This document shows positions 7,643-64,000 of a stretch of DNA of 64,000 nucleotides, piece by piece. A program made the translations under genes and the position numbers. The stretch comes from Liolophura sinensis (lineage: Eukaryota; Mollusca; Polyplacophora; Chitonida; Chitonidae). Where the stretch lies: positions 69,910,984 to 69,974,983 of the forward strand of contig NC_088300.1 in assembly GCF_032854445.1 (NCBI RefSeq). The letters are read 5' to 3'. Below the pieces are notes generated by a model, which saw nothing but the letters and a program-made list of their open reading frames with translations, did not search any database and was not told the origin of the DNA. Position 1 is the first letter of the stretch. Each line of letters begins with the position of its first letter.

Positions 7643-7910
7643 CCAGTTCGAGTTATTATACCGTACCAGTATATCCTACTGCTTTACCGGTAGCCTACGC
7701 CTTATCAGACCAGATGACTACCGGTATCTGGAAATCTTCCTATCTATTTGGTTGGACTACATTATAACAATTTCTGTTTGTATTGCACCTTTTTTTTTTT
7801 TACTTCAACATTTTTTTCAAAATCTTTGCTTTATCAAATACCTCTTCTGTTTGAGCGAATGTGCTTGCTGGAACATCTAGTTCCAGCCTGTCGATTTTTT
7901 TTATGCACCA

Positions 7911-7977
7911 TGGCTTGACCGCAAATTGTTGGACTCAATCAGATCGTATCTTACAAACCTGGCCGTTTCGTCCAATC
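7911..7977 (+). promoter_or_regulatory. Promoter-like module at the duplication edge
   Basis: Segment from tggcttgaccgcaaattgtt to a CCAAT motif (cgtccaatc). It lies 58 bp upstream of the candidate ATG at 8035. Its first ~45 bases recur inverted at 36888-36935 with few mismatches, where they again precede a candidate gene in the same relative orientation. It could be a conserved promoter element or just a dispersed repeat; function is inferred from position only. Confidence 0.4.
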
Positions 7978-8034
7978 ACAGCAGTTCTTACTCAGGCACT
8001 CGGGTCGATCATTGGCACATGTAACTTCAGTTCA

Positions 8035-11000
8035 ATGGAAGGTGTTGCTACATCAGCTGATGTAAGCTCACTTATTTTTACTATTTTTTAGGTAAAATTT
8101 TATACGCATCATAATTAATCCAAACAGTGCTCGCCAATCTATGAATTACGCTTGCCATTCTGTGCCATTTGAGTTCATCAGTGTACAATGTAGGCTAATT
8201 ACAACAGCGCAAACTGTCAAAGTTGTTGTTGTGCTCTTTATTTTAGCAATGTTAGTGCATGACGTACTCATCCTCAGTATTTAATAAGTCCAACTTAGTA
8301 GTTGCAAACGTAAAGTTGGTGGTAGCTCTGTGTGGCTAGGTTTGTGCAGAAATATATGTAAGCATTTACTTTCCCAGCACTCTTTGGTTCTCAGTGTGCT
8401 ATCCTCAACACACTGGTGTTGTCCACAGTTAGCCCGAGACCTCGGTCTAAGAGTGGCTTATATATACTGGACCGCTAGCCATCCTTAGCCCGAGAGTTGT
8501 CTGCACCCGATTTCGGAATATTGCTTACAAAGAGCTACAACCTCATTCAATTCAAATGCATGCGTTTTAGATTCGTCCTGAATACACATAAAGCACGGCT
8601 ATTCTGAAAGCTAAAATATTTACGCACATCTTGCCACAGCCGCTACTCGCCTTTACATCCCCACTCTCCTGTAAATCTTAGCTGAAGTCAAAAATATGGT
8701 TATATTTGGCAGGTCGCCATGCGCTGGCATGTTTTTAAAATCTGGGTTAGCGAGGCACGCTTGCGCAGCAGTGGATAACCTTTCCGGAAAATTTCCGGAA
8801 ATTGAAATTCTGACGACTTGCCAGCTGTTGCTGTCAACAGCAAATGGTAACAGTCAGGGAGCGTTTTGTCTTTTCTGACGTACCTGCCACATCCTTTGGC
8901 AAAAAACTATCAAGGCCTTCACGCACCGTAATGCCTATGGTACCCAATTTTGAATGGAGCGGATGTCGAAGGTAACCCACGTTTTTCATTTGCTAAAAAA
9001 ATAATTTTAATCTGATAGTTTGCACAAACTGTGAGGTCTGTCATTTTGTGCCATAGGCTTCTGTCAAATTTGAATCTCCTCAGTCATATGGCTTTGTGCC
9101 TGTCAGAACTGACAGCCAGCTCAAAACATAGTGACGTAATGAAAGGTCAACCATGAATGCACATGGGCGGGTAGCAGTAACATGGTTTTGTAGGTCAAAA
9201 TGTCAACACGGCATGTGAGCGTAAGTCACAACTGTGAATTATCTTAGATTTACTGGCCGTAAAGGGTACAGAATGTTGGAAAACTTGGCAGAGGATGACT
9301 CGGTGAACATAATTCATTGGAGTTTTGTCCTGTTAATGCATGTACTGGTACATTTTGCACAGATTTTTGTTGCGCGTAGTTTCTCCGCGGTTGGCTATTT
9401 TTACATACCACTGTTTTAACCTGGATGACTCCTCGGCTGTGATCTATGCCTAACCCCATATTAAAAGATCACAGCCGAGATCCTTGCCTAGTTCGCAGTA
9501 GGCCCAGTGTATGATGTGGTTGCTCGTAATGCCTGTCCTTTTCTGCGACCGATGTATGTCAGTTTAGTGATATGCTACGTTTTGGAAGTGTGCACTGCAC
9601 CCTTACTTCTATGTGTACATCACCTACTGGCATCATCTGCCACTCATGCACCATGTTTCAAATTTCAGTATAATCACTCGGAAGTACTTCTTTACATGCA
9701 TGTTAAATTTCTGTTTGTGCAACCCATCAAACCTACAGCCATTGCATATGTCACATATCCTTTTTTTAATACCATTGAAACAAGATTGGCCTTCTTGTCT
9801 GAGGGAGTTAGGACGCCAGTGCTGCCATGTGACCCAGTCGCTAAGAGATCAACTCTAGTTCATGCTGGCTTCCTCTCTGGCCGTACATGAGCAGGTCTTC
9901 CAGCAACCTGCGCATGGTTGTGGGTTTCCTCCTCACTCTGCCCAGTTTCCTCCCACCATAATGCTGTACTGGAATGCTCTTGAGCGTCAAACACCAATGA
10001 AATAAATAAATTTATCATTTATACAGTATGCCAACAACATGCACCATTTCCAGCATGCACTTGTTCCCTTCTTTAAATGTTGCGTGCATCAAGTTCCCAT
10101 AACATTCCCCTAATGCATGTTTATGTTATGCCATTCTCGGCTTCACACTGTCTCAAAAATGCATTTGTGTAAAACCTCTAATTGTGTTTTTGTGTATGGT
10201 TAGCAAAAACAGAATGCTGTGAAGTACTTAATTTTTGCATAGAACTAATTTTCGTATCAATAATTTACCGCAAAAAATAATTTCAGCGAAAAATATCCAA
10301 TATTGAATGATGTGCTACAGGTCGAAGGTAAATTATGGTTTAAATATGTACAAACTCTGATGCTAAGGCTTTGTTGGTATAAAACAAAGTGGGAGTTCAT
10401 TCGTCTGTAGTTAGATTAGTCTTCACTGTGCCAGTAAAGTGAAAGAAAAGTACATTCTAGCATGTGCTGGCTTCTAATGAATGTCGCTGTGATAAGCGCT
10501 ATGTCATTAGCTGTGTCTCTCTTGTGATCCAATAAGTTCTAACAAACTGTGAAGTGTGTATAACACAATGGCCGTTTGACAGCTACAGCAATGTTTGCGG
10601 TTTCTAACCTGCTACAGAGGACGATTAAAACTGAAAACAGTGCAAAACTTACCGTGTTGCTTGATAAAGAATGAGTGATTGGCGCCGATAATGGTGAATT
10701 CACATGTTTTGAAGTAAACTGCTCAAAAGGTGACAGGTCACTTTGCCAGAAGTTGATGAGTACTTTAAAAGTACTCATCAGTGAATCAAAAAGAAGTGAC
10801 ACCTGTTTGAGTACTGCTCACAGTAGGTGCGAAGATAATCTTCTTACGTAGTGTTAAAGCATCCCCCATTGTTTTAATCTATGATCCAGATCACAAGGAT
10901 TAGTGACACTGCAGGAAACAAAGGAGAATTAAAGCCACCCATGATGATTCAGGTTTGACGTGCTTGAATAATTTGGGCCATATCTTGGAAAATTTAAGAT

Positions 11001-14000: not shown

Positions 14001-15393
14001 AGTTATCTTACCTCCAACTTTATTATATTCCAGATTCATTCAAAGGCATCTTCAAGATCCTTGTCAACCATGATGCAAGCCAAGTGCTGACATTCACCTT
14101 TCGTAAAACACAAGTACATGTGAGTGAGTTATGTAAATAAATTCTCCCACCACCCGTACTTCCAAATGTCATTCTTGTAATAAAAGTGTGACACAGTTGC
14201 TTTAATCTGTTACAGTTTAGCATTTAACCCATTATTGCAAGCCATAGAGTATAAAGTGTAATGGTTGCCAATGCATTTACAGTATAGACAGTAAAACCAC
14301 AGCAGCCATCAGTGTTATTGTTTGCAGATGCGAACAAAATTGGTGTCTTTAAATTGCACTTGCAGATGGTGCGTATATTTGGTCTGTGAAACAGTTTGTT
14401 CATCTGTGTGTCTGTTCAGTCAAAACTTGTCATCAAATAATTGGCTTATATTTGTGAACTAAGTTCCCTTTGTACTCTCACTGGTTTCCACCATAATGCT
14501 TTCTGCTGTTAAATACGTAAAATATTCCTCAGTCCATTGCAAAACACCAATCAAATAAGTAAATAAACTAGCAGCATCATAATACTCACCCATCTCGATC
14601 TCCTCTCAGCTACAATATACACAACACAATATCTGTACTGTAATACTGTACATTACTGTACAAAGTATATGTACACAGAGGTATAACAGAGTTCATGTAT
14701 GGCCCTAGTCGGCTGCCTGTATTCAGAGCTATTCGCCTGTCACCAATGCAGTCGCAGTCAGTTCATGTCCTCTGCGGTCCTAGGTGGCAAGGTTTGGTAA
14801 CAACTGGCAGATGGTTGTGGGTTTTGAGCCCAGTTTCCTTCCACCATAATGCTGACCGCTGTCGTATAAGTGAAATATTCTTCAGTATGGCGTAAAACAC
14901 CAAATAAATAAATTGTGGTTTTCCATGGGCACTTACATTTCATTAACCCATAATACTCATGAACATTATACGAGTCAACAAGTCTTCGGTACAGCATTAA
15001 CAAACTATCAGATAAATAAATTGGAAGCATTCTGCCAAATTCAACAAAACATGCAATTTACTTGCAAATCCTAAAAGCCAAATTAAATTATGTACTGCAC
15101 AACTGACTCTTCATCTCCTGGGTCAGTGCTCATGATTGCCTCATTAGCTTCAGTTAAGTGCATTCCTCTAGAGCTAGTTGTTTTTATGTAGTGCACACAC
15201 TACCCACATTATGTGTTCTTATTTATTTTTGATACCTGTTCACATCAGCCCAATGCCAGATGGTTTTAGATATAAATGCTGTTCATGCAACAAATTCTGC
15301 TTGGTTATTATGCTTTAAAGCACCATCTATTCTTCTTTTCAGATCCTCTCCATTCCTCCCATGAGTACAACAGAAGACAACATTTTGGGGTGA
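8035..15393 (+). CDS. Candidate spliced small-protein gene, about 65 codons, unrecognised
   Basis: Four-exon model whose phases agree at every junction: 8035-8061 (MEGVATSAD, donor gtaagc), 12375-12408 (VYLSSAFLSIW plus one base, acceptor taaatttcag, donor gtaggc), 14034-14119 (SFKGIFKILVNHDASQVLTF..., acceptor atattccag, donor gtgagt), and 15343-15393 (ILSIPPMSTTEDNILG then TGA, acceptor cttcttttcag). An AATAAA follows 215 bp after the stop. A CCAAT-containing module sits just upstream, and a minimal ATG-TAA occurs at 8019-8024. I do not recognise the protein; no signal peptide or named domain is visible. The 34-base second exon is the weakest link, and exons could be missing. Introns hold SINEs. 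It converges with the minus-strand gene ending at 17797. Confidence 0.35.
9432..9479. repeat. Perfect inverted repeat, 14-bp arms, 20-bp loop
   Basis: ctcggctgtgatct (9432-9445) is the exact reverse complement of 9466-9479. It lies in the first intron of the candidate plus-strand gene and recurs at 40492-40539. Confidence 0.95.
9805..10011 (+). mobile_element. Common SINE, degenerate head
   Basis: A decayed head (gtgacccagtcgc) precedes catgctggcttcctctctgg, gcaacctgcgcatggttgtg and a shortened 3' end (gagcgtcaaacaccaatgaa) with an aataaataaa tail. Copy 2 at 40865-41071. Confidence 0.8.
10754..10780. repeat. 27-bp near-perfect palindrome
   Basis: 12-bp arms (tgatgagtactt / aagtactcatca) around a 3-bp centre. 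Copy 2 at 41814-41840. Confidence 0.9.
12203..12229. repeat. Inverted repeat, 11-bp arms, 5-bp loop
   Basis: aagtatgcaac (12203-12213), loop taatc, gttgcatactt (12219-12229); perfect arms. Copy 2 at 43263-43289. Confidence 0.9.
12755..12845 (+). mobile_element. tRNA-like head fragment of a SINE
   Basis: ggcagtggcccagtggttaa resembles the A-box region of a tRNA-derived SINE, but no clear B box or tail follows. Copy 2 at 43815-43905. Confidence 0.4.
14477..14567 (+). mobile_element. SINE 3' end, decayed
   Basis: tttccaccataatgctttct, then aaaatattcctcagtccatt and aaaacaccaatcaaataagt. Copy 2 at 45537-45627. Confidence 0.7.
14750..14912 (+). mobile_element. Common SINE copy
   Basis: Body with cagatggttgtgggtttt, ccaccataatgctgaccgct, ataagtgaaatattcttcag and an aaataaataaa tail; the head is mostly lost. 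Copy 2 at 45810-45972. Confidence 0.8.
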
Positions 15394-17708: not shown

Positions 17709-17796
17709 GTGACGCCATAGTCCCATTCAAAGTGTCCCACTGCACTACAGTCATGTTTACAATGGCTTTAGTCTGTGCCATCCTTACTAACAATAT

Positions 17797-20700
17797 TCAC
17801 AGGATACAAGAAGTAGTGTATTGTTCCATTTTATAGAAACTGTTTATCCCAAACAACTGGACCAAGTTGATGGAGCCATTGAGCTTGAGTGGAATGTTGA
17901 GAAGATGCTGAAGCAGTCTGCCGTGTTTTCTCATCAAAACACAGCTCTCCTCTCTATGGAGAATCATCTGCTGCCATCACATGCCATTTTACACACCGTC
18001 TACTCAATATTCTCTCTGTATAATGCACACACTACACCAGACCTTTCAAATCCCACCCAGTTCTCTGTACAATCAACACACTTCACATATTAAACCCACC
18101 TTCCGTAGCTCATCCAAATATTCGCACAATGCACACTCTTTAGCCCACCCAGGTCACTACACACCTACTTCCATATCCCATTCAACAGTGTACAGACACT
18201 ACAACCCACTGCCCATAACCCACCCTGGTCCCTCTATACACACTCCAACCCACCTTTCACAGCCCACCCAGGTCTGTATAATAAACACACTACAACTGCC
18301 ATTCCACAGCCCACCCAGTTAAGTATAATAAACACACTACAACTGCCCTTCCACAGCCCACCCAGGTCTGTATAATAAACACACTACAACTTCCCCTCCA
18401 CAGCCCACCCGGGTCTGTGTAACAAACACACTACAACTGCCCTTCCACAGCCCACTCAGGTCGGTATAATAAACACACTACAACCCACCTTCCACAGCCC
18501 ACCCAGGTCTGTATGATAAACACTGTACAACCCACCTTTCATATCCCACCCAGGTCTGTTTAATAAACACTCGACAACTGCCCTTCCACAGCCCACCCAG
18601 GTCCCAGTACAATAAACACACTACAACCCACCTTCCACAGCCCACTGAGGTCGTGTAATAAACACACTACAACCCACCTTCCACAGCCCACCCAGGTCTG
18701 TATGATAAACACTGTACAACCCACCTTTCATATCCCACCCAGGTCTGTTTAATAAACACTCGACAACTGCCCTTCCACAGCCCACCCAGGTCTCAGTACA
18801 ATAAACACACTACAACCCACCTTTCATAGCCCACCCAGGTCTGTATAATAAACACTCAACAACCTACCTCCCACAGTCCATCTGGGTCTGTACCATAAAC
18901 ACACTACAACCCACCTTCCACAGCCCACCCAGGTCCATACAGTAAACACACTACAACCCACCTTTCATATCCCACCCAGGACTGTGTAACAAACACTCAA
19001 CAACCTACCTTCCACAGTCCATCTGGGTCTGTACCATAAACACACTACAACCCAGGTCTGTATAATAAACACTCAACAACCCACCTTTCATATCCCACCC
19101 AGGTCTGTGTAATAAACACTCAACAACCTACCTTCCACAGTCCATCTGGGTCTGTACCATAAACACACTACAACCCACCTTTCATATCCCACCCAGGTCT
19201 GTATAATAAACACTCAACAACCCACCTTCCACAGCCCACCCAGTTCTGTACCATAAACACTCAACAACCTACCTTCCACAGCCCACCCAGTTCTGTATAA
19301 TAAACACACTACAACCCACCTTTCCTATCCCACCCAGGTCTGTGTAATAAACACTCAACAACCTATCTTCCACAGTCCATCTGGGTCTGTACCATAAACA
19401 CACTACAACCCACCTTCCACAGCCCACCCAGGTCCATACAGTAAACACACTACAACCCACCTTTCATATCCCACCCAGGACTGTGTAACAAACACTCAAC
19501 AACCTACCTTCCACAGTCCATCTGGGTCTATACCATAAACACACTACAACCCACCTTCCACAGCCCACCCAGGTCCATACAGTAAACACACTACAACCCA
19601 CCTTTCATATCCCACCCAGGACTGTGTAATAAACACTCAACAACCTACCTTCCACAGTCCATCTGGGTCTGTACCATAAACACACTACAACCCACCTTCC
19701 ACAGCCCACCCAGGTCTGTATAATAAACACTCAACAACCCACCTTTCCTATCCCACCCAGGTCTGTGTAATAAACACTCAACAACCTACCTTCCACAGTC
19801 CATCTGGGTCTGTACCATAAACACACTACAACCCACCTTCCACAGCCCACCCAGGTCCATACAGTAAACACACTACAACCCACCTTTCATATCCCACCCA
19901 GGACTGTGTAACAAACACTCAACAACCCACCTTCCACAGCCCACCCAGTTCTGTACCATAAACACTCAACAACCTACCTTCCACAGCCCACCCAGTTCTG
20001 TATAATAAACACACTACAACCCAGCTTTCATATCCCATCCAGGTCTGTGTAATAAACACTCAACAACCTACCTTCCACAGTCCATCTGGGTCTGTACCAT
20101 AAACACACTACAACCCACCTTCCATATCCCACCCAGGTCTGTATAATAAACACTCAACAACCCACCTTCCACAGCCCACCCAGTTCTGTACCATAAACAC
20201 TCAACAACCTACCTTCCATAGCCCACCCAGTTCTGTATAATAAACACACTACAACCCACCTTTCATAGTCCACCCAGGTCTGTATAATAAACACTCAACA
20301 ACCTACCTTCCACAGTCCATCTGGGTCTGTACCATAAACACACTACAACCCACCTTCCACAGCCCACCCAGGTCCATACAGTAAACACATTACAACCCAC
20401 CTTTCATATCCCACCCAGGACTGTGTAACAAACACTCAACAACCTACCTTCCACAGTCCATCTGGGTCTGTACCATAAACACACTACAACCCACCTTCCA
20501 CAGCCCACCCAGGTCCATACAGTAAACACTCTACAACCCACCTTCCACAGCCCACCCAGGTCTGTATAATAAACACAGTACATCCCACCTTTCATATCCC
20601 ACCCAGGTCTGTGTAATAAACACTCAACAACCTACCTTCCACAGTCCATCTGGGTCTATACCATAAACATTATACAACCCACCTTCCACAGCCCACCCAG

Positions 20701-21742
20701 GTCCATACAGTAAACACTCTGCAACCCACCTTCCACAGCCCACCCAGGTCTGTATAATAAACACAGTACATCCCACCTTTCATATCCCACCCAGGTCTGT
20801 GTAATAAACACTCAACAACCTACCTTCCACAGTCCATCTGGGTCTATACCATAAACATTATACAACCCACCTTCCACAGCCCACCCAGGTCTGTATAATA
20901 AACATAGTCTGTACAATGCTGAAGATGGAGTGGCGTATTATTTCAGCACACATGGAAATCATGTACGACAGCCGCCATCCTACACCATTGGCATGAAGCA
21001 AAACTATGACTTCTCCATCGGATGAACAGAAGTGTGAGAAGCGCTGTACCAAGGTGTCTTGGGTAGGCTGGTCCCACTTGTTCCTGTGGTTTAGTCCTAT
21101 GGTCATGATCTCTTTCATGAATTTTCTCACAAATTAGGAAACAATTACAGGTCATCTCACATAACCACATTGCAAGGGGTAAATACTGAGAAAAGTGAAC
21201 AGTTCAACTCCTTTCTCCAATGCATAAAATACATACGAGCTCACCTCAGCCAGTCTCATTTCTGATTCTTTCTGCAACTCATGATTTATATCTGGAATGA
21301 AAGGAAGACAAATATTTTTAGTTGTAGAGTCAACGTAGCCCTCACTGGTGCGGACAGTATATAGGTTCAAATTGTCTTATCCCACAATATCACAATCCAC
21401 AAATGATCATGCATGCTCAGTGACTCCCTGTCTGTGCGTATAAACTGTGTACCAGTGGATAGCAACAGAGATATATGCTCAGTGACTCCCTGTCTGCGCT
21501 TACCTATTTCTTTGAATCACGAAAACTTACACTTATATCTACAATTTTTGTGCACTGACCTACCAAGAACGATATTGACAGCCGTGATTCCCTGGCATTT
21601 TTCTGTTTTGTGGACTGTAAACAAATATTTCTATAAACCATCCAAGTATGGTTACAGTTTCTCAGACAAACACCAAACTAGAGAAGCTCACTGTCTCTCT
21701 AGCAACTTTACCACATTTGTGGAGTGTCAAAGCTGTCCACAC
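17797..21742 (-). CDS. Candidate spliced minus-strand gene, C-terminal ~165 codons, unrecognised
   Basis: Five exons read in consistent phase on the minus strand: 21742-21674 (VWTALTLHKCGKVARETVSF...), 21591-21531 (GITAVNIVLGRSVHKNCRYK plus one base, donor gtaagt), 21291-21237 (INHELQKESEMRLAEVS plus two bases, acceptor ctttcattccag, donor gtatgt), 21125-20984 (KFMKEIMTIGLNHRNKWDQP..., donor gtagga), and 17967-17797 (MILHREESCVLMRKHGRLLQ..., TGA at 17799-17797). AATAAA lies 89 bp downstream. Three introns are short (82, 239, 111 bp) and the last is 3 kb, filled by a minisatellite. The product looks soluble, mixed charged/hydrophobic; no known domain is recognised. The start is not in these exons; 26576-26502 is a phase-compatible candidate. 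Plus-strand frames over the same bases (17821-18093, 21413-21757) are probably shadows. Confidence 0.5.
18013..20908. repeat. 47-bp minisatellite array, about 60 units
   Basis: About 2.9 kb of a repeat of about 47 bp: cccacccaggtctgtataat, aaacacactacaacccacct, tccacag. Variants (ctgggtctgtaccataaac, ggtccatacagtaaac, tttcatatcccacccagg) recur in order, giving a trimeric higher-order unit near 141 bp. Plus-strand units usually contain AATAAA, ATAAAC or AGTAAA. The minus strand is G-rich (GGTGGG, CTGGGTGGG). It fills the last intron of the minus-strand candidate gene. Copy 2 at 49073-51968. Confidence 0.97.
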
Positions 21743-22667: not shown

Positions 22668-22924
22668 GGGGCCTCCTTGGCTCAGTTGGATAGCGCGCTA
22701 GCGCAGCGTAATGACCCAGGAGCCTCTTAAGCTGTTCAAGCACAGCTCATGCTGGCTTTCTCTCCGGACGTACATGGGATGTCTCCCAACAACCTGCGGA
22801 TGGTCGTGGGTTTCCCCCTGGCTTTGCCCGGTTTCCTCCCATCATAATGCTGGCCACCGTCGTATAAGTGAAATATTCTTGAGTACGGCCTAAAACACCA
22901 ATCAAATAAATAAATAAATAAATG
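22668..22924 (+). mobile_element. Full-length common SINE with 10-bp target-site duplication
   Basis: Complete element: tRNA-like head gcctccttggctcagttgga, B-box-like gctgttcaagcacagctc, body catgctggctttctctccgg, gcggatggtcgtgggtttcc, ataagtgaaatattcttgag, and tail caatcaaataaataaataaa. Flanked by perfect direct repeats actgaatatc at 22658-22667 and 22925-22934, the signature of target-primed retroposition. Copy 2 at 53728-53984. Confidence 0.93.
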
Positions 22925-23451
22925 ACTGAATATCTGATAAACATTGGTTGATGTTAATTTAGGGGTCTCATGGCAGGACATGCTGTAGTAAGCCGCTTTA
23001 TTGACTGATTGCTATTTAGCGTCATATTTAAGCAGTTTTGCCACGTTACAAACGTTGCTTGGTGGTCTTTTTCCTTCGCGAACATCCAGAAAGGAGAATC
23101 AACATTTTACCCGTCTGAAGATGACAGTGAATGCAGTTAGTTTGAATAGTGATATATATATATATATGCCTAAAACGTTAGAGTATGTAACATTGATCTG
23201 CGCATTTCAAAACAAGAGGTACCAAATATAGATACTGATTCTTTACACGTTAAAGTCGTAAATATTTGCGTCAAATTGCATATATAATATCTGTCATCAA
23301 TTATTTTCTGAGGAAAACACCACGTACAACGTTCATATGTTATAGCACTTCGTTGGCAAATTTAGTTATTTATCTAAAAAATTGTGAAGTACGACGTTAA
23401 ACCGCAAGCATAGATACATACATAGCTAGTTATCTCTTTGGAAGTTTACAT

Positions 23452-23715
23452 TGTACTCAAGAATATTTCACTTATACCACAGGGGCCAGGATTATGATGA
23501 GAGCCCGGGAGAAACCTACGACAGTCCTCAGGGTGGTCCCAGGTCTTCCGAATTAAAGTTGGAGAGAAAGACACCATAAGCTAGACTCGAACTCACAGCT
23601 ATCAACACTGGTGAGAGGGCTCTTGGATAATAATGCTGCAATAGCTAACTTTGGAGATCTCAAGGGCATTCCGAGAGATGAGCTAGCGGTCCTCAGTGGT
23701 ACTAAGCCACGTGCT
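23452..23715 (-). mobile_element. Common SINE, decayed, with head
   Basis: The plus strand shows gtactcaagaatatttcact, then ggattatgatgagagcccgg and agactcgaactcacagct (B box reversed), with a degenerate head to about 23715. Copy 2 at 54512-54775. Confidence 0.75.
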
Positions 23716-24321: not shown

Positions 24322-24465
24322 TTGGAAGGTCTGCAGCAACCTGCGAATGGTCGTGGGTTTCGACTGGGATATGCCCCGTGTCCTCCCACCATAACACTTG
24401 CCGCCGCCCTACAAGCGAAATATTCTTGAGTGCGGCGTAAAACACAATTCAAATAAATAAATATA
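24322..24465 (+). mobile_element. Common SINE, 5'-truncated
   Basis: ggaaggtctgcagcaacctg, gcgaatggtcgtgggtttcg, ccaccataacacttgccgcc, gaaatattcttgagtgcggc and a caaataaataaatatata tail. Copy 2 at 55382-55525. Confidence 0.85.
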
Positions 24466-25587
24466 TAATCAGGCACAGTGTCAGAGAAATAGCGCATATT
24501 GACAAATAAATTTCGATTTGGTTATGTCTTGGTTTGAAGTGAATTTGGACTCGCAACATCACCACTTCACAGAACCGTTAAGGACGAAGGAACATTAACA
24601 TGAAGAATATATCAGGTAAAAGACCATTAAACACTGTAAATAAACATATGGTTGGCGTTATACTGTGTGACGGATACCCTCTGGGGTCGCTACATCCAAC
24701 TTTAGAACTTGATGTTTAAAACCCATAAAATGGTTGGAAAAAATTTTTTAAAAAATCCATGGACCTATTTTGCTGGACAGCGTTTCTTGTAAATGATTTC
24801 AGCCTTTACTTTGACATGAAAACATTTCTTCATTGAAAACACGAATATAAGCCAACAGAGTGAGCGCAGAAAATTGTATGAAACTTGACGTACTTCTTCT
24901 TGATATTCTTTATTTGTTTCGATTTCACACGGTCAAAGGTTGCATAAAACTTAGAGAGAAAAGCCTGGTTTATGGTATGCACAAATAATGGGGATATAGT
25001 TCTCTTTTTGCCAGATTAAAACTTTGAATTCGAAACTTTTAACAGTATTAGTTAGTAATTAATGATACAGTAATTATTTATTACACTGGAATGGCGTTGT
25101 TACACATCGGATGTACATGATGTAAATTTTAAAAGTTTGTGATTCAGGTGGCAGATTTTCTGCTAAACAGTTTCTTCACTGGGGTGACCGGCCTCTGAAC
25201 ACCAAATAATGGAGAAATAGTGAATACATCAGCCTTACAATTCTTTTAAATTATTTCCTAGTTTTTATTTTTACAGCTTGTTACAACCACACTGAAATAC
25301 AGTTAGTTTTAATGACTACTTATGCCTAAGTATATGTATGGCGTAACATTAAACACCGAAAACACAGGGAGTGGTAGGCCTTTATTCAAACAGCTTCCTT
25401 TGTCTTGTTTCCATTGGTCCCATTTCCATTGACCAAGTTGAAATATTGTGAAGGCATTGAACTACAGATAAAATGACATGCATTTAATATGCTAAGTTTC
25501 AGTATATATTTGGCTGAAGTATAGACCACACATAACACCAAACAGGATACAGTAGTCACTGGGAAGAAGTGCCTGAATGAGCACAAT

Positions 25588-25652: not shown

Positions 25653-25853
25653 TATTTATTTATTTGGTGGTAGGAAAATGAGCAGAGCCTGAGCCTGGAG
25701 AAACCAACTGGCCTCTGCAAGTTGCTGGAAGATCTTCCCACATATGGTCGGACAGGAAGCCAGCATGAGCTAAACTTGAACTCACACCGACCTCATTGGT
25801 GTGAGGCTCCTGGGTCATTGTGCCGCTAACCATCTCGGCCACGGAGGCCTTAT
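25653..25853 (-). mobile_element. SINE with head but lacking the conserved 3' core
   Basis: On the minus strand: head ggcctccgtggccgagatgg, B-box gtgtgagttcaagtttagct, body catgctggcttcctgtccga to cctaccacc, then directly aaataaataaa. The ataagtgaaatattcttgag core is missing. A possible 7-bp duplication cagttta flanks it (25646-25652, 25854-25860). Copy 2 at 56713-56913. Confidence 0.85.
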
Positions 25854-26576: not shown

Positions 26577-28042
26577 TTTGCTTGAAGTTCAATGAGATGA
26601 AGACAACGATGACAGTGCAAACTGTTCCACCATATCAGAAAATGGAGTTGTCAATCTGCCAATAAATATCACAGATGTTAATGAGAAAATATATATTTGG
26701 CAGAGCTGCATGAAGAAAACATTTTTCATCAGGCAAATCAAACACTAGAAGGAAAATGATACACCCATATATGTTTCATACACACTGAATGCAAATCCTT
26801 GTTTACGCAAACCAGAATGCCAGTTTGAAGACATGCTGTGCACTTGGTGTTGAAAGTGTCCACATCATGTCTACTGACAGCAGGTAATGCCTCTCACTGA
26901 ATTAATACCCATAATCAGGAGAAATTAAGAAAACATGACTGCTTTGGTTCACAAAAAGTATACTTTTTGGTAACATTTATGGCATTTACAACTGGAATGT
27001 GGTATTCCTCTTAAAGTAAGAGAAGGTTGTGGTTTCCATCAGCAAACTGGGTAATGTGACTTGGTGGCCATGTTGAATTTAGTGCAAAACCTTTAATAGC
27101 ATGCTAGTCTATATAAGTCACTAAAATTTGGAAATTGTGAAATCCTTTTTATGTTTTTTGCAGCCAGTTATTAGAAAACATTACATAAAAACTATGCTAT
27201 CTGATGAACTTTGAGATGCTGATTGCAAGTCACCAGAAGTTAGCAATTTTATTTTACTACAAGTGGAAAAAATGCGATGAAAATAATTGAAAATGGATCT
27301 TTTGAAACTAAGCAAACAAAGGGTTTATACACCGGTAGCTGACACAGACTGGAGCAAAGAAAGTATAATAAACCTTCAAATTTGTTTGTAAACTACAATT
27401 GTAAGTATTGTAGATCGAAGAAAAACAAAAGAAGAATACAATGTGAGAATAGGAAAAAAAAAGAGAAACTTGTCCCCTAAATAAATAAAGATTTCAATAC
27501 AATTGCTCATCAAAGTAATTAGTGTGCATGAAATGTGGAACACTGAAGTATTTACATTATCTACACTCACAGAGCTTTGTTGAGTAAGCTTGGATGGGTG
27601 ACGTATATGTACGATAAATGTACCCTTTAGGGGTAAATTATATGAATGGAATTAATAAACAAACCTGTTAGGACAGTGGCCAAATATGATGAAATTCATG
27701 AATATTTGTTATTCAACCAGACAGCTACTACAAAAAAAAAAGCAAAAAAAACGAAAAATGAATGTAAAAATGAACATGCTTTGTTATTATTTGTGTATTC
27801 CGTAGCTTTTATTATGTAACTTTCTTTTTTAACCTTGTGTATTTATTTCTTTACTAACTTAACTGTTGTTTAATGACATACTAATGTGATGGCAGTAACT
27901 TTTATGGGTGGAGGAAGCTGGAGAAAACCCATATGTTGTCAAATGCTTACTGTTACCAATGTGCCCCAAGCTGTGAGCGAGGGAAAAACCTTTTTAAAAA
28001 AGCAAGTTGGCGTGACGTTAAAGACTATTTATAACATTACCA

Positions 28043-28175
28043 TTATTTATTTATATAACTGGAGCTTTATACAGTATTCAAAAATATTTGACTTACATGA
28101 TGATAGCCAGTATTAAACCGGGCAAAGCTTGGGGAAAACTCACGACCATCTTCAGCTTGCTGGCAGACCTTCAAG
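28043..28175 (-). mobile_element. Decayed common SINE
   Basis: The plus strand reads atttatttatataactggag, then agtattcaaaaatatttgac, atgatagccagtattaaacc and gcttgctggcagaccttcaa. Copy 2 at 59103-59235. Confidence 0.65.
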
Positions 28176-29079
28176 GATACGAATATAACATTAAGAATAA
28201 AGTTAACAGAATCAATGATATGCATGAAGTTGAAAAGTAAAGCACCCTTCAAGGTCATAATTATGGCAAATTAAGATTAATACGACACACTAAATATGCA
28301 ACAATTATTCATGGAGTAAGCTGGATTTTAAACTTGATGTGAGGTTACACAAAATGAACACATGCACATAAAATTTTATGAGAATGAGACAATAAGACCT
28401 GTGTGACAGATAGGTGGACAGAGTACGGGGTGGGCAGACAGAATGACAAATCAAAATTAATGTCTGTTGCTGATTTTGAAGAATGTTATTAATGGCAAAC
28501 AAGGCAGTCAGTGAACACCTGTAGCTCTCCTGACTGAACAGTTCATAAAACTGTATAATGTTCAGCGAGATATGTTCAAATCCTGTCCTCTAAACCAAAA
28601 TACAGCAGAATGACACAGACACATACACATGTCATTCATACATTAGATAGTACTAAGATGTCGGAATTAAATTAAAAAAAAAGGCCAAAATTATTATGTA
28701 CTGTCAGAAATATGACTGTTTATTATATACATAGCAGATATAGGTTTCAGAGCAGCTTTGTGGTCAGGTCATCAAACTACATAAAGTAGAATACAGAAAA
28801 TATTTAAATTCAGAAAATATTGATTCTGTGACAAATTCAGTGATCAGCGCATTTCCACAGTTTTCAAGATAAACAACTAATTTCTGCACCCTTCATTTGT
28901 TCGAACATGCTCTATCTGCATTTTAAATTTCAGCTTAATCGCATTAAACCTTGTCAAGAAAATGACACATAAACACTTTCTGTCAATCGTCATATTGCAG
29001 AAACAGTACATTAATTGAATGGTGTCTATGCATTGATAGAAAGCACATATTCTTCGTAACCATCAATGCACTGTACATA

Positions 29080-29740
29080 CACTACATAATATGTACATAT
29101 AAATGTGTCAAATGTAGTCAATCAACCTGTGGGCAATGTTTAAAGGCGTGTATGTCCTCTTCTTTTCCACACAGCTCAAGGATTTTCAGCATACTTACAG
29201 AACATACATAGCCCTTATTATACAGTCATTTTCAGCTTACAACTATAGCAGTTTTCTGTCTAGTGTCCAGCAAATACTGGGATAATTGCGATTTTTCACA
29301 GCTTAATCACAATTTAGGTCAAAAGTATACACATCAAGAAAAAAAATAAGACCGGGTTCGAGATAAGAACATCAAACTATGTTGGGTGGCATACTTACAA
29401 TATTTCTACATTCATTCTAGACACAAACAGATTGTACATGCATTATGTAACATGTCTTGTAAATGTGCCAAAAAATCGTAAATCGACCTTTTATCAAATT
29501 TTGAAGCCCTGTATATCCTGCCTTAAGACAACTCAAACATTTTCAGCATACATACAGTACATATATAGTCCCTTTCACTCAGCAATCTTGAACTCTACAG
29601 GTGTATCAGTTTTCTGTCACAAGACCTACAAATATGGGGAAATTGCAAATTTCTGATCACAATTTGCAACATAACTACATCTTACAGGGAAAAAATAAGA
29701 ACAAATTCGTGATCTGGACATCAAATTATGTCAGATAGCA
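29080..29740. repeat. Diverged tandem pair, period about 358 bp
   Basis: Two units share gttttctgtc (29251 and 29609), ttttcagcatac, acatatatagtccc-like and atcacaattt blocks in the same order. They are too diverged to be recent. Copy 2 at 60140-60800. Confidence 0.7.
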
Positions 29741-29839
29741 TATTTAGAATCTTGAAATTCCAAAAAACACACACACACAAAAAAACGTGATATCACTTCC
29801 TCTGTATCATGTAAAACCTAATTTGCATAAACATTGCAT

Positions 29840-30770: not shown

Positions 30771-31964
30771 AAGAGGGAATCAACCCGGAAAGAATGCAGA
30801 GCAGTGACTTCTTATGTTATAGATTTGTAAATCGTTGTGGTTGTAAAAGATGCCACTGTGGACTGTGGTATTTGTATACACATGGTGAACTGCATTTGGC
30901 AATCCTTGTACTGTTTGTGGCAATTGCAATCCTGTGATTGGTCAAGTCCATGTTACAGGCACTACATTCAGATTGGTTTTTTTTTATTAATTTTTTCAGT
31001 GGGAATATATGAAAAGAGCCAATGATATTAAGAGACATTGACTAATCATAATAGAGGCTAGTTTGTATAGTGTGACGGGTGCTGCAGACAACAGTGACTA
31101 CTGACGTGTCACTTTGACATCTTCCCAGATTCCTGTGATTTGTTGTAAGACTGAACCTTAATTTTATGGTTGAACTGACTGACTTGACTGAAACTTATGC
31201 TGCTTTAGCACAAGGAAGCACCAATCAAATAAAACTGTCAAAAAGGAAAACTTGAGGTTTTAAATGTAAATGTTTAACTGTCAAGTGGTGCATAAGTGAT
31301 AGGTTCTGAAGGTGTCAATGGATGTCGGGGATACATAACAGGTAAGTGCTTTTGGTGCATATAAACTCTGAAACTGGATATGCCTGGCAGAATAAAATTA
31401 TTCAGTGGAGCTCACATTAGATATGAGATTTTGTACTTTTTGAGAAACACAGTGTTTGCCATGGCAAAAGGACAGAGAAAGAGACAGGTGTCAAGGTTTA
31501 GGAAAAGAAAAAAACTATTCAATCAGAGGCAATAAAGCAACACTCAGGCTGGTAGGAATGTGCCAAAAACATATGTACATATGAGCAACAGCAGCTGTGT
31601 GAGATTGCATGGATTGGACAAAAATTGAATGTGTGAACTTGTTGGACTGCGATCTACAGCCCTATGATGTTGGTGTACTGGCCCATTCGCTCCCACTGTC
31701 ATGGACTCTTACCAGCAGGCTGAATGCCAGAGATCAAAAGCTGAGCAAAACACCTACAGACTGCTGCACCTGGGAAAGACCGCCGAGCTGTAGAAACATT
31801 TGCCTACCACTGGACCACAACATCATACTGTCCTGAAGGGCTGAACTGAGATTTGAACAGCGAGGTGCCTTGGGGTGTGTGCGTCACAGAGAGGTTTGCC
31901 TGTGCTGAGTGCGGCTTCTCTTCTAAAAGTAGAAAGTTGTACCATGGAGATACTATCAGGCAAA

Positions 31965-32153
31965 AATTTATTTATTTAATTTATCTGATTGGTGTTTTAC
32001 GCAGTACTCAAGAATACATCACTTATACGATGACAGCCAGCATTATGGTGGGTGGAAACTGGGCAGAACCTTGGGGAAGACAGACAGACCTTCCCACTTA
32101 CGGCCAGAGAGGAAGCCAGCATGAGCTGGACTTGAACTCACAGCGACCCCAAG
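31965..32153 (-). mobile_element. Common SINE with possible 8-bp target-site duplication
   Basis: The plus strand starts aatttatttatttaatttat, then ttggtgttttacgcagtact, agccagcattatggtgggtg, cttcccacttacggccagag and gacttgaactcacagcgacc. caggcaaa flanks it at 31957-31964 and 32154-32161. The tRNA head is cut off after the B-box region. Copy 2 at 63026-63214. Confidence 0.85.
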
Positions 32154-32669
32154 CAGGCAAAGACAATGAAAATGTCTGCTAGTTGGAATGAACCTACACT
32201 AGCAATGAAAATGGGTCAGTTACTGAACATGCTGAACTTGCATGCCGTTTGTTGCACTCATTGCAATGTAGTTTGAGACAGTCTAGTCAAGCACAATGAG
32301 GCATCAATAGTACAGATAAGGTGAAACACATAACAACCGATGCGGACAGTTCATTATACGCAGTAGCCATGGACCACTGAGTCAGTGCACCATCTGGACA
32401 CACCACTTGGGGAAAAGCCATTGCAGCAGGGTGAAAGTGATGGCATTCTGTGACAATGTGTTCCCCACAAGGACAGCGGAGTGAAAGAAAGACAGGAAAC
32501 TGGCTTTGTGGACGACTTTGCATCTAGGTGAAACAGTGAGTGTACAGAGGCCTACTGACAGACTCCAAGTGACATACAGGACTTCATATGTAGAAACCTG
32601 ACTTGCGTAACAGATGCCATTGTCCTGTGTTATCAGGGAGATCAGTGTTTGTGCAAGCAGTATTTGGCT
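32154..32669. other. No gene recognised
   Basis: Single-copy-looking sequence between a SINE and the reverse transcriptase relic. The minus frame 32287-32523 contains a CPCGE...H string vaguely like the Cys/His tail of non-LTR elements, too weak to call. Confidence 0.4.
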
Positions 32670-33570
32670 ATGACTGAGAAGGATGGCAATTTAATAGATG
32701 ATCCAGCTAAAATTTTCCATATTTTCAATACTTTCTTCTCAACTGTCCCCATTCTTTAATAGATATTAATAATATAAACAAGGACAATTTTGTTCAAAGT
32801 CTTGAAAAACTCAGGGAACAAGTTGAGGGAAAAGTTCTTCATGATACTTTTTACTCCATACCAAATATGTTGTATGTTTCTGTTTTACAATACCTTTAAA
32901 GGCTTGATAAAGATAAGGCTAGTGATCAATTCAAAAATTCTATATTCTAAATGTCAATTCTAAATTTCTTTCATCATCTGCCCCTATTATTGCAAAATCT
33001 TTTACCATGCTAATAAACAAATGTGTTATGACCAGACATGGTTATCCCTCTTCACAAAAGGGGTTCAAAGTTGAAAACTATCATCCAATATCTGTCCTAC
33101 TCAGTTTTTCAAAAATCACTGAACGACATTTACATAACTGTTTATACGAGTATCTCTCAAATTTTAAATTATTGAGCAAAAATAAATGTGGTTTTTGCCC
33201 CTCTTACGCTCTTGTGGAACTGTATTGCTGAAAATGGTTGAACACTGGTTTACGGCGACAGATAACACTGAAGTTATTGGAACTGTACCTGTAGACTTCA
33301 AGCAGGCATTTGATACTGTTAATCACAATATATTACTTAAAAAACTTAAAGCATACAAATTCACTCAACTGCTCTTACATTCTTCCAGTGATACCTATCT
33401 AACACACAACAAATGGTTGTTTGTGGAGGAGAAATGTATAATGCTAAGGATATTAAAGCCAGTGTCTTGCAAGGCTGGTTCCATATTGCAGCCTTTACTT
33501 TTTATACTATACATAAATGATCTACCATTATTTCTAAAGAACAATTTTATTATTTCTAATTATTTCTAAA
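32670..33570 (+). pseudogene. Decayed non-LTR retrotransposon reverse transcriptase
   Basis: Jockey/CR1-like ORF2 remains in shifting frames with stops. In order: an IFHIFNTFFSTV string near 32720; LDKDKASD near 32900; ENYHPISVLLSFSKITERHL (from about 33073); GFCPSYALVE; DFKQAFDTVNHNILLKKL (catalytic block A, first Asp kept); and GSILQPLLFILYINDLP (block B). The block C (F/Y)ADD motif is absent: the frame stops at 33569. At least one frameshift lies between 33186 and 33231. Non-functional. Copy 2 is cut by the window end (63731-64000). Confidence 0.9.
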
Positions 33571-38147: not shown

Positions 38148-38202
38148 TTGTGGTGTCTAGATATGCACACCAAACTGGTGGTCGAACCTCAGGCTGCACC
38201 AG

Positions 38203-38479
38203 GAGCCTTCGTGGCTGAGGTATGTGGTTAGCACGCCAGCACGGTGTAATGATCTAGGAGCCTCCCACCCATGCAGTCGCTGTGATCGAGTTCAAGTCCA
38301 GCTCATGCTGGCTTCCTCTCCAGCCATTCATGGAAAGGTCTCTCGGCAACCTGGGGACGGTTGTGGGTTCTCCCGGGGCTCTGCCCAGTTTTCTCCCGCC
38401 ATAATGCTGGCCGCCGTCCTGTAAGTGAAATATTCTTGAGTACGGCATAACACACCAATCAAATAAATAAATAATAAAT
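38203..38479 (+). mobile_element. Full-length common SINE
   Basis: Head gagccttcgtggctgaggta, B-box tgatcgagttcaagtccagc, body catgctggcttcctctccag, ccataatgctggccgccgtc, taagtgaaatattcttgagt, tail caatcaaataaataaataat. No exact target-site duplication found. Confidence 0.92.
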
Positions 38480-38965
38480 TAGGCAACACAAATTGCCAGA
38501 CAAGCGTTTTCAACCATGCGCCCCCTCAAGCAACAAAAGAGAGGGTAATTCACTCTTTTATATCACTAATGTTTTATTCAAGCTAATTATAGGACTACAC
38601 ATTCCGTATATAATAATAATTCTAAACGCCTAAAATAAATTCTGTATGCTAAGGGGTGTCATAATTGTAGGTCTACTTACTAGGTGAATTATAACCGTTC
38701 TTTAGCTGTTCTAAAAAAAAACATAGGCTTGTTAAGTGTAAAAGGTTTCGTTCCACAGTTTCAAGCTGTGCCGGTAACTTAAAAGAACTTTCTGGCATTA
38801 CCCTATTTTTCGCAGTGAATCACCCTTTTTTAAGCATGTTCAAACAAACAACAACACAGAAACAACTTAGTGCCTTCCACCCACATACAAACTTAAGACA
38901 GGAAGTGTCATAATACATTACAACAGTAGGAGATTCTCCGGCTTTCAGTTTCTGAACTAACGTAC
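38480..38965. other. Unique sequence left of copy 2
   Basis: Not homologous to the sequence left of copy 1 (7420-7905). No gene seen. It supplies a different upstream context for the copy-2 module and gene. Confidence 0.6.
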
Positions 38966-48856: not shown

Positions 48857-51800
48857 TCACAGGATACAAGAAGTAGTGTATTGTTCCATTTTATAGAAAC
48901 TGTTTATCCCAAACAACTGGACCAAGTTGATGGAGCCATTGAGCTTGAGTGGAATGTTGAGAAGATGCTGAAGCAGTCTGCCGTGTTTTCTCATCAAAAC
49001 ACAGCTCTCCTCTCTATGGAGAATCATCTGCTGCCATCACATGCCATTTTACACACCGTCTACTCAATATTCTCTCTGTATAATGCACACACTACACCAG
49101 ACCTTTCAAATCCCACCCAGTTCTCTGTACAATCAACACACTTCACATATTAAACCCACCTTCCGTAGCTCATCCAAATATTCGCACAATGCACACTCTT
49201 TAGCCCACCCAGGTCACTACACACCTACTTCCATATCCCATTCAACAGTGTACAGACACTACAACCCACTGCCCATAACCCACCCTGGTCCCTCTATACA
49301 CACTCCAACCCACCTTTCACAGCCCACCCAGGTCTGTATAATAAACACACTACAACTGCCATTCCACAGCCCACCCAGTTAAGTATAATAAACACACTAC
49401 AACTGCCCTTCCACAGCCCACCCAGGTCTGTATAATAAACACACTACAACTTCCCCTCCACAGCCCACCCGGGTCTGTGTAACAAACACACTACAACTGC
49501 CCTTCCACAGCCCACTCAGGTCGGTATAATAAACACACTACAACCCACCTTCCACAGCCCACCCAGGTCTGTATGATAAACACTGTACAACCCACCTTTC
49601 ATATCCCACCCAGGTCTGTTTAATAAACACTCGACAACTGCCCTTCCACAGCCCACCCAGGTCCCAGTACAATAAACACACTACAACCCACCTTCCACAG
49701 CCCACTGAGGTCGTGTAATAAACACACTACAACCCACCTTCCACAGCCCACCCAGGTCTGTATGATAAACACTGTACAACCCACCTTTCATATCCCACCC
49801 AGGTCTGTTTAATAAACACTCGACAACTGCCCTTCCACAGCCCACCCAGGTCTCAGTACAATAAACACACTACAACCCACCTTTCATAGCCCACCCAGGT
49901 CTGTATAATAAACACTCAACAACCTACCTCCCACAGTCCATCTGGGTCTGTACCATAAACACACTACAACCCACCTTCCACAGCCCACCCAGGTCCATAC
50001 AGTAAACACACTACAACCCACCTTTCATATCCCACCCAGGACTGTGTAACAAACACTCAACAACCTACCTTCCACAGTCCATCTGGGTCTGTACCATAAA
50101 CACACTACAACCCAGGTCTGTATAATAAACACTCAACAACCCACCTTTCATATCCCACCCAGGTCTGTGTAATAAACACTCAACAACCTACCTTCCACAG
50201 TCCATCTGGGTCTGTACCATAAACACACTACAACCCACCTTTCATATCCCACCCAGGTCTGTATAATAAACACTCAACAACCCACCTTCCACAGCCCACC
50301 CAGTTCTGTACCATAAACACTCAACAACCTACCTTCCACAGCCCACCCAGTTCTGTATAATAAACACACTACAACCCACCTTTCCTATCCCACCCAGGTC
50401 TGTGTAATAAACACTCAACAACCTATCTTCCACAGTCCATCTGGGTCTGTACCATAAACACACTACAACCCACCTTCCACAGCCCACCCAGGTCCATACA
50501 GTAAACACACTACAACCCACCTTTCATATCCCACCCAGGACTGTGTAACAAACACTCAACAACCTACCTTCCACAGTCCATCTGGGTCTATACCATAAAC
50601 ACACTACAACCCACCTTCCACAGCCCACCCAGGTCCATACAGTAAACACACTACAACCCACCTTTCATATCCCACCCAGGACTGTGTAATAAACACTCAA
50701 CAACCTACCTTCCACAGTCCATCTGGGTCTGTACCATAAACACACTACAACCCACCTTCCACAGCCCACCCAGGTCTGTATAATAAACACTCAACAACCC
50801 ACCTTTCCTATCCCACCCAGGTCTGTGTAATAAACACTCAACAACCTACCTTCCACAGTCCATCTGGGTCTGTACCATAAACACACTACAACCCACCTTC
50901 CACAGCCCACCCAGGTCCATACAGTAAACACACTACAACCCACCTTTCATATCCCACCCAGGACTGTGTAACAAACACTCAACAACCCACCTTCCACAGC
51001 CCACCCAGTTCTGTACCATAAACACTCAACAACCTACCTTCCACAGCCCACCCAGTTCTGTATAATAAACACACTACAACCCAGCTTTCATATCCCATCC
51101 AGGTCTGTGTAATAAACACTCAACAACCTACCTTCCACAGTCCATCTGGGTCTGTACCATAAACACACTACAACCCACCTTCCATATCCCACCCAGGTCT
51201 GTATAATAAACACTCAACAACCCACCTTCCACAGCCCACCCAGTTCTGTACCATAAACACTCAACAACCTACCTTCCATAGCCCACCCAGTTCTGTATAA
51301 TAAACACACTACAACCCACCTTTCATAGTCCACCCAGGTCTGTATAATAAACACTCAACAACCTACCTTCCACAGTCCATCTGGGTCTGTACCATAAACA
51401 CACTACAACCCACCTTCCACAGCCCACCCAGGTCCATACAGTAAACACATTACAACCCACCTTTCATATCCCACCCAGGACTGTGTAACAAACACTCAAC
51501 AACCTACCTTCCACAGTCCATCTGGGTCTGTACCATAAACACACTACAACCCACCTTCCACAGCCCACCCAGGTCCATACAGTAAACACTCTACAACCCA
51601 CCTTCCACAGCCCACCCAGGTCTGTATAATAAACACAGTACATCCCACCTTTCATATCCCACCCAGGTCTGTGTAATAAACACTCAACAACCTACCTTCC
51701 ACAGTCCATCTGGGTCTATACCATAAACATTATACAACCCACCTTCCACAGCCCACCCAGGTCCATACAGTAAACACTCTGCAACCCACCTTCCACAGCC

Positions 51801-52802
51801 CACCCAGGTCTGTATAATAAACACAGTACATCCCACCTTTCATATCCCACCCAGGTCTGTGTAATAAACACTCAACAACCTACCTTCCACAGTCCATCTG
51901 GGTCTATACCATAAACATTATACAACCCACCTTCCACAGCCCACCCAGGTCTGTATAATAAACATAGTCTGTACAATGCTGAAGATGGAGTGGCGTATTA
52001 TTTCAGCACACATGGAAATCATGTACGACAGCCGCCATCCTACACCATTGGCATGAAGCAAAACTATGACTTCTCCATCGGATGAACAGAAGTGTGAGAA
52101 GCGCTGTACCAAGGTGTCTTGGGTAGGCTGGTCCCACTTGTTCCTGTGGTTTAGTCCTATGGTCATGATCTCTTTCATGAATTTTCTCACAAATTAGGAA
52201 ACAATTACAGGTCATCTCACATAACCACATTGCAAGGGGTAAATACTGAGAAAAGTGAACAGTTCAACTCCTTTCTCCAATGCATAAAATACATACGAGC
52301 TCACCTCAGCCAGTCTCATTTCTGATTCTTTCTGCAACTCATGATTTATATCTGGAATGAAAGGAAGACAAATATTTTTAGTTGTAGAGTCAACGTAGCC
52401 CTCACTGGTGCGGACAGTATATAGGTTCAAATTGTCTTATCCCACAATATCACAATCCACAAATGATCATGCATGCTCAGTGACTCCCTGTCTGTGCGTA
52501 TAAACTGTGTACCAGTGGATAGCAACAGAGATATATGCTCAGTGACTCCCTGTCTGCGCTTACCTATTTCTTTGAATCACGAAAACTTACACTTATATCT
52601 ACAATTTTTGTGCACTGACCTACCAAGAACGATATTGACAGCCGTGATTCCCTGGCATTTTTCTGTTTTGTGGACTGTAAACAAATATTTCTATAAACCA
52701 TCCAAGTATGGTTACAGTTTCTCAGACAAACACCAAACTAGAGAAGCTCACTGTCTCTCTAGCAACTTTACCACATTTGTGGAGTGTCAAAGCTGTCCAC
52801 AC
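48857..52802 (-). CDS. Candidate minus-strand gene, copy 2
   Basis: Exons 52802-52734, 52651-52591, 52351-52297, 52185-52044 and 49027-48857; AATAAA at 48768-48763. The same protein is predicted as for 17797-21742, with the minisatellite again in the last intron. Confidence 0.5.
49073..51968. repeat. 47-bp minisatellite, copy 2
   Basis: Same length and, as far as I can read, same unit order as 18013-20908. Identity of a hypervariable-type array between copies points to a very recent or artefactual duplication. Confidence 0.97.
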
Positions 52803-60800: not shown

Positions 60801-60899
60801 TATTTAGAATCTTGAAATTCCAAAAAACACACACACACAAAAAAACGTGATATCACTTCCTCTGTATCATGTAAAACCTAATTTGCATAAACATTGCAT

Positions 60900-61831: not shown

Positions 61832-63025
61832 AAGAGGGAATCAACCCGGAAAGAATGCAGAGCAGTGACTTCTTATGTTATAGATTTGTAAATCGTTGTG
61901 GTTGTAAAAGATGCCACTGTGGACTGTGGTATTTGTATACACATGGTGAACTGCATTTGGCAATCCTTGTACTGTTTGTGGCAATTGCAATCCTGTGATT
62001 GGTCAAGTCCATGTTACAGGCACTACATTCAGATTGGTTTTTTTTTATTAATTTTTTCAGTGGGAATATATGAAAAGAGCCAATGATATTAAGAGACATT
62101 GACTAATCATAATAGAGGCTAGTTTGTATAGTGTGACGGGTGCTGCAGACAACAGTGACTACTGACGTGTCACTTTGACATCTTCCCAGATTCCTGTGAT
62201 TTGTTGTAAGACTGAACCTTAATTTTATGGTTGAACTGACTGACTTGACTGAAACTTATGCTGCTTTAGCACAAGGAAGCACCAATCAAATAAAACTGTC
62301 AAAAAGGAAAACTTGAGGTTTTAAATGTAAATGTTTAACTGTCAAGTGGTGCATAAGTGATAGGTTCTGAAGGTGTCAATGGATGTCGGGGATACATAAC
62401 AGGTAAGTGCTTTTGGTGCATATAAACTCTGAAACTGGATATGCCTGGCAGAATAAAATTATTCAGTGGAGCTCACATTAGATATGAGATTTTGTACTTT
62501 TTGAGAAACACAGTGTTTGCCATGGCAAAAGGACAGAGAAAGAGACAGGTGTCAAGGTTTAGGAAAAGAAAAAAACTATTCAATCAGAGGCAATAAAGCA
62601 ACACTCAGGCTGGTAGGAATGTGCCAAAAACATATGTACATATGAGCAACAGCAGCTGTGTGAGATTGCATGGATTGGACAAAAATTGAATGTGTGAACT
62701 TGTTGGACTGCGATCTACAGCCCTATGATGTTGGTGTACTGGCCCATTCGCTCCCACTGTCATGGACTCTTACCAGCAGGCTGAATGCCAGAGATCAAAA
62801 GCTGAGCAAAACACCTACAGACTGCTGCACCTGGGAAAGACCGCCGAGCTGTAGAAACATTTGCCTACCACTGGACCACAACATCATACTGTCCTGAAGG
62901 GCTGAACTGAGATTTGAACAGCGAGGTGCCTTGGGGTGTGTGCGTCACAGAGAGGTTTGCCTGTGCTGAGTGCGGCTTCTCTTCTAAAAGTAGAAAGTTG
63001 TACCATGGAGATACTATCAGGCAAA

Positions 63026-63214
63026 AATTTATTTATTTAATTTATCTGATTGGTGTTTTACGCAGTACTCAAGAATACATCACTTATACGATGACAGCCA
63101 GCATTATGGTGGGTGGAAACTGGGCAGAACCTTGGGGAAGACAGACAGACCTTCCCACTTACGGCCAGAGAGGAAGCCAGCATGAGCTGGACTTGAACTC
63201 ACAGCGACCCCAAG
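63026..63214 (-). mobile_element. Common SINE, copy 2
   Basis: Counterpart of 31965-32153. Confidence 0.85.
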
Positions 63215-63730
63215 CAGGCAAAGACAATGAAAATGTCTGCTAGTTGGAATGAACCTACACTAGCAATGAAAATGGGTCAGTTACTGAACATGCTGAACTT
63301 GCATGCCGTTTGTTGCACTCATTGCAATGTAGTTTGAGACAGTCTAGTCAAGCACAATGAGGCATCAATAGTACAGATAAGGTGAAACACATAACAACCG
63401 ATGCGGACAGTTCATTATACGCAGTAGCCATGGACCACTGAGTCAGTGCACCATCTGGACACACCACTTGGGGAAAAGCCATTGCAGCAGGGTGAAAGTG
63501 ATGGCATTCTGTGACAATGTGTTCCCCACAAGGACAGCGGAGTGAAAGAAAGACAGGAAACTGGCTTTGTGGACGACTTTGCATCTAGGTGAAACAGTGA
63601 GTGTACAGAGGCCTACTGACAGACTCCAAGTGACATACAGGACTTCATATGTAGAAACCTGACTTGCGTAACAGATGCCATTGTCCTGTGTTATCAGGGA
63701 GATCAGTGTTTGTGCAAGCAGTATTTGGCT

Positions 63731-64000
63731 ATGACTGAGAAGGATGGCAATTTAATAGATGATCCAGCTAAAATTTTCCATATTTTCAATACTTTCTTCT
63801 CAACTGTCCCCATTCTTTAATAGATATTAATAATATAAACAAGGACAATTTTGTTCAAAGTCTTGAAAAACTCAGGGAACAAGTTGAGGGAAAAGTTCTT
63901 CATGATACTTTTTACTCCATACCAAATATGTTGTATGTTTCTGTTTTACAATACCTTTAAAGGCTTGATAAAGATAAGGCTAGTGATCAATTCAAAAATT
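63731..64000 (+). pseudogene. Start of reverse transcriptase relic, copy 2 (cut by window end)
   Basis: Counterpart of 32670-32939: the FNTFFSTV and LDKDKASD blocks only. Confidence 0.8.

Follow-up and report, generated by a model that had tools for sequence, protein, structure and literature searches.

Recent tandem segmental duplications and copy-number variants generally appear as direct, adjacent copies with a sharp border and almost no divergence. False homotype duplications, as described in the available sections of the Vertebrate Genomes Project report (PMC8081667), are near-identical, co-oriented copies lying side by side with a gap between them and differing by no more than consensus error would allow; they are often about one read long and sit at a contig boundary. 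In false heterotype (haplotypic) duplications, according to the available parts of PMC8081667 and PMC9516828, a segment is common to two contigs with a differing flank, and the copies are alleles that normally differ from each other. Here a window of 64,000 nucleotides from the chiton Liolophura sinensis (contig NC_088300.1 of assembly GCF_032854445.1, forward-strand positions 69,910,984 to 69,974,983; coordinates below are those of the window) was analyzed, in which a segment of at least 25 kb is present twice. The pair resembles a recent tandem duplication in being direct, adjacent in the scaffold, sharply bordered on the left and almost free of divergence, and it shares the near-identity, co-orientation, juxtaposition, intervening gap and error-compatible differences of a false homotype duplication, but unlike the published cases it extends over at least 25 kb and has an unrelated 818-bp stub in front of the second copy. 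The shared segment with differing flanks recalls a false heterotype duplication; unlike ordinary alleles, however, the copies show only 2 differences in 25 kb, which would require homozygosity of the shared part. No published description of exactly this geometry, with an unrelated stub, was met in the available portions of the literature on false duplications, gap length and contig-end overlaps. The pair is probably a false duplication at a contig boundary, that is, one locus recorded twice (probability roughly 0.6; this figure and the weights expressed in words for the other readings are judgements, not computed odds).

The self-comparison of the window with BLASTN was dominated by one match, which aligned 7906-32939 with 38966-64000 over 25,035 columns with one mismatch and one gap (99.992% identity). 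A base-by-base walk along both copies likewise gave a total of two differences, one substitution and one insertion or deletion, leaving exact blocks of 1,628, 20,559 and about 2,846 bp. Both copies are in direct orientation and adjacent in the scaffold, an adjacency resting on the scaffold join, and chance plays no part in the origin of a match of this size. Its right end is the end of the window and not a biological border, and the duplicated segment may be longer. The first-pass annotation had reported by eye a 25-kb match with two differences that included a minisatellite; both statements were borne out, the array at 18196-20904 being identical to 49256-51964 in the second copy. The longer simple repeats (at least eight mononucleotide, five dinucleotide, four trinucleotide or three tetranucleotide units) were also identical between the copies in 21 of 21 cases; the A6/A7 run, the sole run that differs, is shorter than these thresholds and lies outside the 21. 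An unchanged minisatellite of 58 copies together with 21 unchanged simple repeats, sequences that mutate quickly, is as expected for a single locus. Within the distinct sequence (1-38965), outside tandem arrays, the other matches were short repeats of about 68-91% identity.

The two events in 25,034 sites correspond to 8e-5 per site (95% interval 1e-5 to 2.9e-4). Heterozygosity values given in the available parts of mollusc genome reports are 0.794% for Elysia timida and 0.18-0.42% for other Sacoglossa (PMC11460185), 0.45% for Omphiscola glabra (PMC12553978), 1.45% for Patella ulyssiponensis (PMC12405849) and 2.4% for Limnoperna fortunei (PMC10541798). At 0.18, 0.45, 0.794, 1.45 and 2.4%, 45, 113, 199, 363 and 601 differences, respectively, would be expected in 25 kb, against the 2 observed, in Poisson sums that borrow their rates from other mollusc species and presume an evenness of heterozygosity unlike that of real genomes. 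Because the differences fall far below this expectation, the copies do not qualify as ordinary alleles unless this region is homozygous in the animal; ordinary allelic haplotigs were accordingly rejected, with a locally homozygous stretch as the exception, and the earlier argument that so few differences speak against them holds with the same caveat. With regard to consensus error, at the quality value (QV) of 49.7 given in the available text for the Xylophaga dorsalis assembly (PMC13173280), 0.54 errors would be expected over both copies, with a probability of two or more of 0.10, whereas at QV 45 the corresponding figures are 1.6 and 0.47. Given ordinary assembly quality, the data therefore allow zero true differences between the copies, and consensus error could account for two differences per 2 x 25 kb.

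The left border of the match is sharp: the common sequence starts CACCATGG and is preceded by TTTATG in copy 1 and by CGTAC in copy 2. The only relatives of the 818-bp flank of copy 2 (38148-38965) found in the window were members of an interspersed repeat family that we take to be akin to short interspersed nuclear elements (SINE-like), and 38480-38965 had no relative within 1-38965 at E 0.05. The idea of contig 2 as a sequence simply nested within contig 1 was rejected, since this flank is absent from contig 1 save for SINE-like repeats. The first-pass annotation had considered an artefact at least as likely as a real duplication, and a similar split was reached here, but plain overlap of contig ends, one of the sources of an artefact considered there, is insufficient because the 818 bp are not in contig 1.

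Behind the near-identity, the gap and the two differing left flanks, we infer the following history. One genomic segment, beginning at base 7906 and at least 25 kb long, would have been written into two contigs because the assembly graph led into it from the left by two paths, one through the sequence up to 7905 and the other through the 818-bp piece up to 38965. The latter path may stem from the other parental haplotype, with a structural variant adjoining a homozygous region, or from the stray end of a read that was chimeric or carried errors. Scaffolding, probably with Hi-C data, would then have placed the contigs side by side with a fixed gap of 200 N, and the resulting layout would mimic a tandem duplication. 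The 200-N run between the copies fits such a fixed-length placeholder: in the YaHS-scaffolded assembly of X. dorsalis, 939 gaps sum to 187.8 kb in the available text (PMC13173280), which by our own division is 200 each. In the sections of Ko et al. (PMC9516828) that were available, gaps between copies are a mark of false duplications and were not found in the true ones examined; an assembly gap lies between both copies here as well. It was nevertheless given little weight either way, because a repeat of at least 25 kb at 99.99% identity would also break an assembly of reads of about 9 kb. Whichever reading is correct, the gap, previously taken as a pointer to an artefact, does not by itself tell an artefact from a real duplication; the sequence immediately beyond the window can do so.

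A real, very recent tandem duplication is a possible, if doubtful, alternative. It would have a unit of 7906-38965 (31,060 bp including 200 arbitrary Ns), with 38965/38966 perhaps marking the join of the end of one unit to the start of the next; the repeat being longer than the reads, the assembly might have broken off close to the end of the unit, leaving the break for the scaffolder to bridge. The 31,060-bp tandem unit of the first-pass annotation is correct as an offset between the copies, but with arbitrary Ns inside it is not a measured unit length. Several observations weigh against a false duplication. Unrelated left flanks exclude the simplest overlap, so that an artefact needs an extra event, for which a chimeric read or haplotypes differing structurally next to a homozygous stretch would serve, whereas a tandem duplication explains them without one, 38148-38965 being the end of its unit. 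If the gap is small, contig 1 stops and contig 2 starts no more than about 1 kb from the predicted unit end, where the graph of an unresolved repeat would be expected to branch. Two errors would be unlikely at QV 55 or 60, at which the probability of two or more is 0.011 and 0.0012, respectively, and a T/A substitution is not known as a usual consensus error of high-fidelity (HiFi) reads. At 25 kb, the match is longer than the HiFi reads of two gastropod projects, which average 8.8 and 9.4 kb (our own division of figures in the available parts of PMC12405849 and PMC12553978), and overlap-type false duplications are often about one read long in the available text of PMC8081667. Some assemblies, moreover, are purged with purge_dups and curated by hand, as stated in the accessible portion of PMC12405849, which should catch some cases of this kind.

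The sole substitution, 1 in 25,034 sites or 4e-5 (95% interval 1e-6 to 2.2e-4), fits a young tandem duplication, but the unchanged minisatellite and 21 simple repeats demand great youth; a tandem duplication of about 31 kb with one substitution in 25 kb and all 58 minisatellite copies unaltered is conceivable, though we hold it with reserve. An event so young would therefore probably still be a polymorphic copy-number variant in its population. Neither a second unit end nor a right border is in view within the window, the two left flanks share no homology at the breakpoint from which the mechanism of joining could be read, and no recognizable gene would have been gained. The short reach of contig 2, only 818 bp to the left of the shared segment, is also unexpected for a tandem duplication under ordinary read cover, barring a cut or dropout: for evenly placed reads of one length (8.8-30 kb), the probability that no read extends beyond that point is about 1% with 5x coverage and about 1e-4 with 10x. 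Because ordinary coverage would reach further, the left end of contig 2 would owe its position to a single read, a cut or a dropout in coverage. For a false duplication, this short reach disfavors the form involving a second haplotype, to the same degree as it does a tandem duplication; a single stray read end would explain it. If the pair is an artefact, every annotated feature here would be double-counted, and the assembly should be rid of the false tandem duplication; if it is real, it is a very young copy-number change that the minisatellite could help to date.

The content of the segment was examined by comparing 233 stop-free open reading frames (ORFs) of at least 50 amino acids in 1-39000, all of them, with Pfam. 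Shorter ORFs and those wholly within arrays at 2600-3900, 5950-6480 and 18000-20950 were left out of this count, as was copy 2 beyond 39000, whose sequence is that of copy 1. Four ORFs gave matches at E 0.01 (Pentapeptide, RVT_1, ATP13 and NNH6; Table 1), and when 50 of the 233, mostly longer ones, were rescanned singly at looser thresholds every match fell below its cut-off. Both matches within the copied segment at E 0.01, ATP13 and NNH6, are below their curated cut-offs, and conserved genes were rejected as its content. The two candidate genes that the first-pass annotation placed in the duplication were thus not recognizable: no conserved gene was recognized in the copied segment by the Pfam scan, which would miss short exons and any gene whose family is not in Pfam. 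The ATP13 ORF gave nothing convincing against PDB sequences (best E 0.15). In the searches for structural RNAs, ARAGORN found no tRNA and Rfam gave no match at the gathering threshold.

These results also bear on the very improbable reading that the copies are one giant mobile element inserted twice, or a dispersed duplication, brought together by chance or mis-scaffolding. The differing left flanks of the copies would be in keeping with it, as would a dispersed repeat fragment 4 bp in from the left border, to which 36888-36936 is an inverted relative (93.9% over 49 bp), and a single, very weak hit to a Mutator-like transposase (E 0.035; 13.5 bits, cut-off 26.5). This inverted relative, however, is imperfect and only about 50-85 bp long, no target-site duplication was seen by eye at 7905/36943, and among the ORFs scanned no transposon coding domain was found at E 0.01 in 7906-32939. 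The RVT_1 fragment, probably a decayed retroelement, is below its cut-off and lies outside the part seen twice. A giant transposon was rejected on the absence of a coding domain at E 0.01 in the copies and of a visible target-site duplication.

Table 1. Features of the 64,000-nucleotide window (bits are Pfam scores, each with its curated cut-off).
Feature	Position	Strand	Remarks
Left flank of copy 1	1-7905	+	Unrelated to left flank of copy 2 apart from SINE-like repeats
Copy 1	7906-32939	+	25,034 bp, extent as far as copy 2 is visible in the window
Rest of contig 1	32940-37947	+	Single occurrence in the window, dispersed repeats aside
Gap	37948-38147	.	Exactly 200 N, arbitrary length; last base of contig 1 is 37947, first base of contig 2 is 38148
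Left flank of copy 2	38148-38965	+	818 bp, start of contig 2
Copy 2	38966-64000	+	25,035 bp, cut by window end
Sole substitution	9534 / 40594	+	T (copy 1) / A (copy 2); base-by-base walk
Sole insertion or deletion	30094 / 61154	+	A6 (copy 1) / A7 (copy 2), extra A at 61154; base-by-base walk
Minisatellite	18196-20904	+	Copied segment; 47-bp unit, 58 copies
Dispersed repeat fragment	7910-7958	+	Starts 4 bp inside left border
Pentapeptide-repeat ORF	104-322		Left flank of copy 1; E 3e-8
ATP13 ORF	17791-18090		Copied segment, beside minisatellite; E 0.00028, 21.2 bits, cut-off 26.7
NNH6 ORF	22992-23228		Copied segment; E 0.0055, 17.3 bits, cut-off 27
Mutator-like transposase match	31850-32179		Copied segment; E 0.035, 13.5 bits, cut-off 26.5
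RVT_1 fragment	33186-33566		Outside part seen twice; 27.3 bits, just below cut-off 29.6
SINE-like repeats	1288-1447, 7183-7326, 7570-7640, 9837-10018, 14482-14567, 14768-14914, 22734-22923, 23453-23594, 24324-24475, 25665-25819, 28042-28172, 31965-32147, 34827-34995, 38288-38480		14 places within the distinct 39 kb, not counting a partial match at 6470-6597

Outside the copied segment, the Pentapeptide-repeat ORF presumably resembles the C-terminal end of KCTD9. The SINE-like family occurs on both strands, with several members ending in AAAT-type runs, and short pieces of it had no match in a text search of the literature. The left flank of copy 1 contains a tandem array at 2747-3738 (40-bp unit, 24.8 copies, 88% matches), and a further array at 6067-6420 (144-bp unit, 2.5 copies, 93% matches) is also readable as units of about 30 bp. 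Diverged local direct repeats were seen within the copied segment, 29072-29404 with 29433-29753 (68%), and in the rest of contig 1, 35643-35793 with 35892-36036 (81%).

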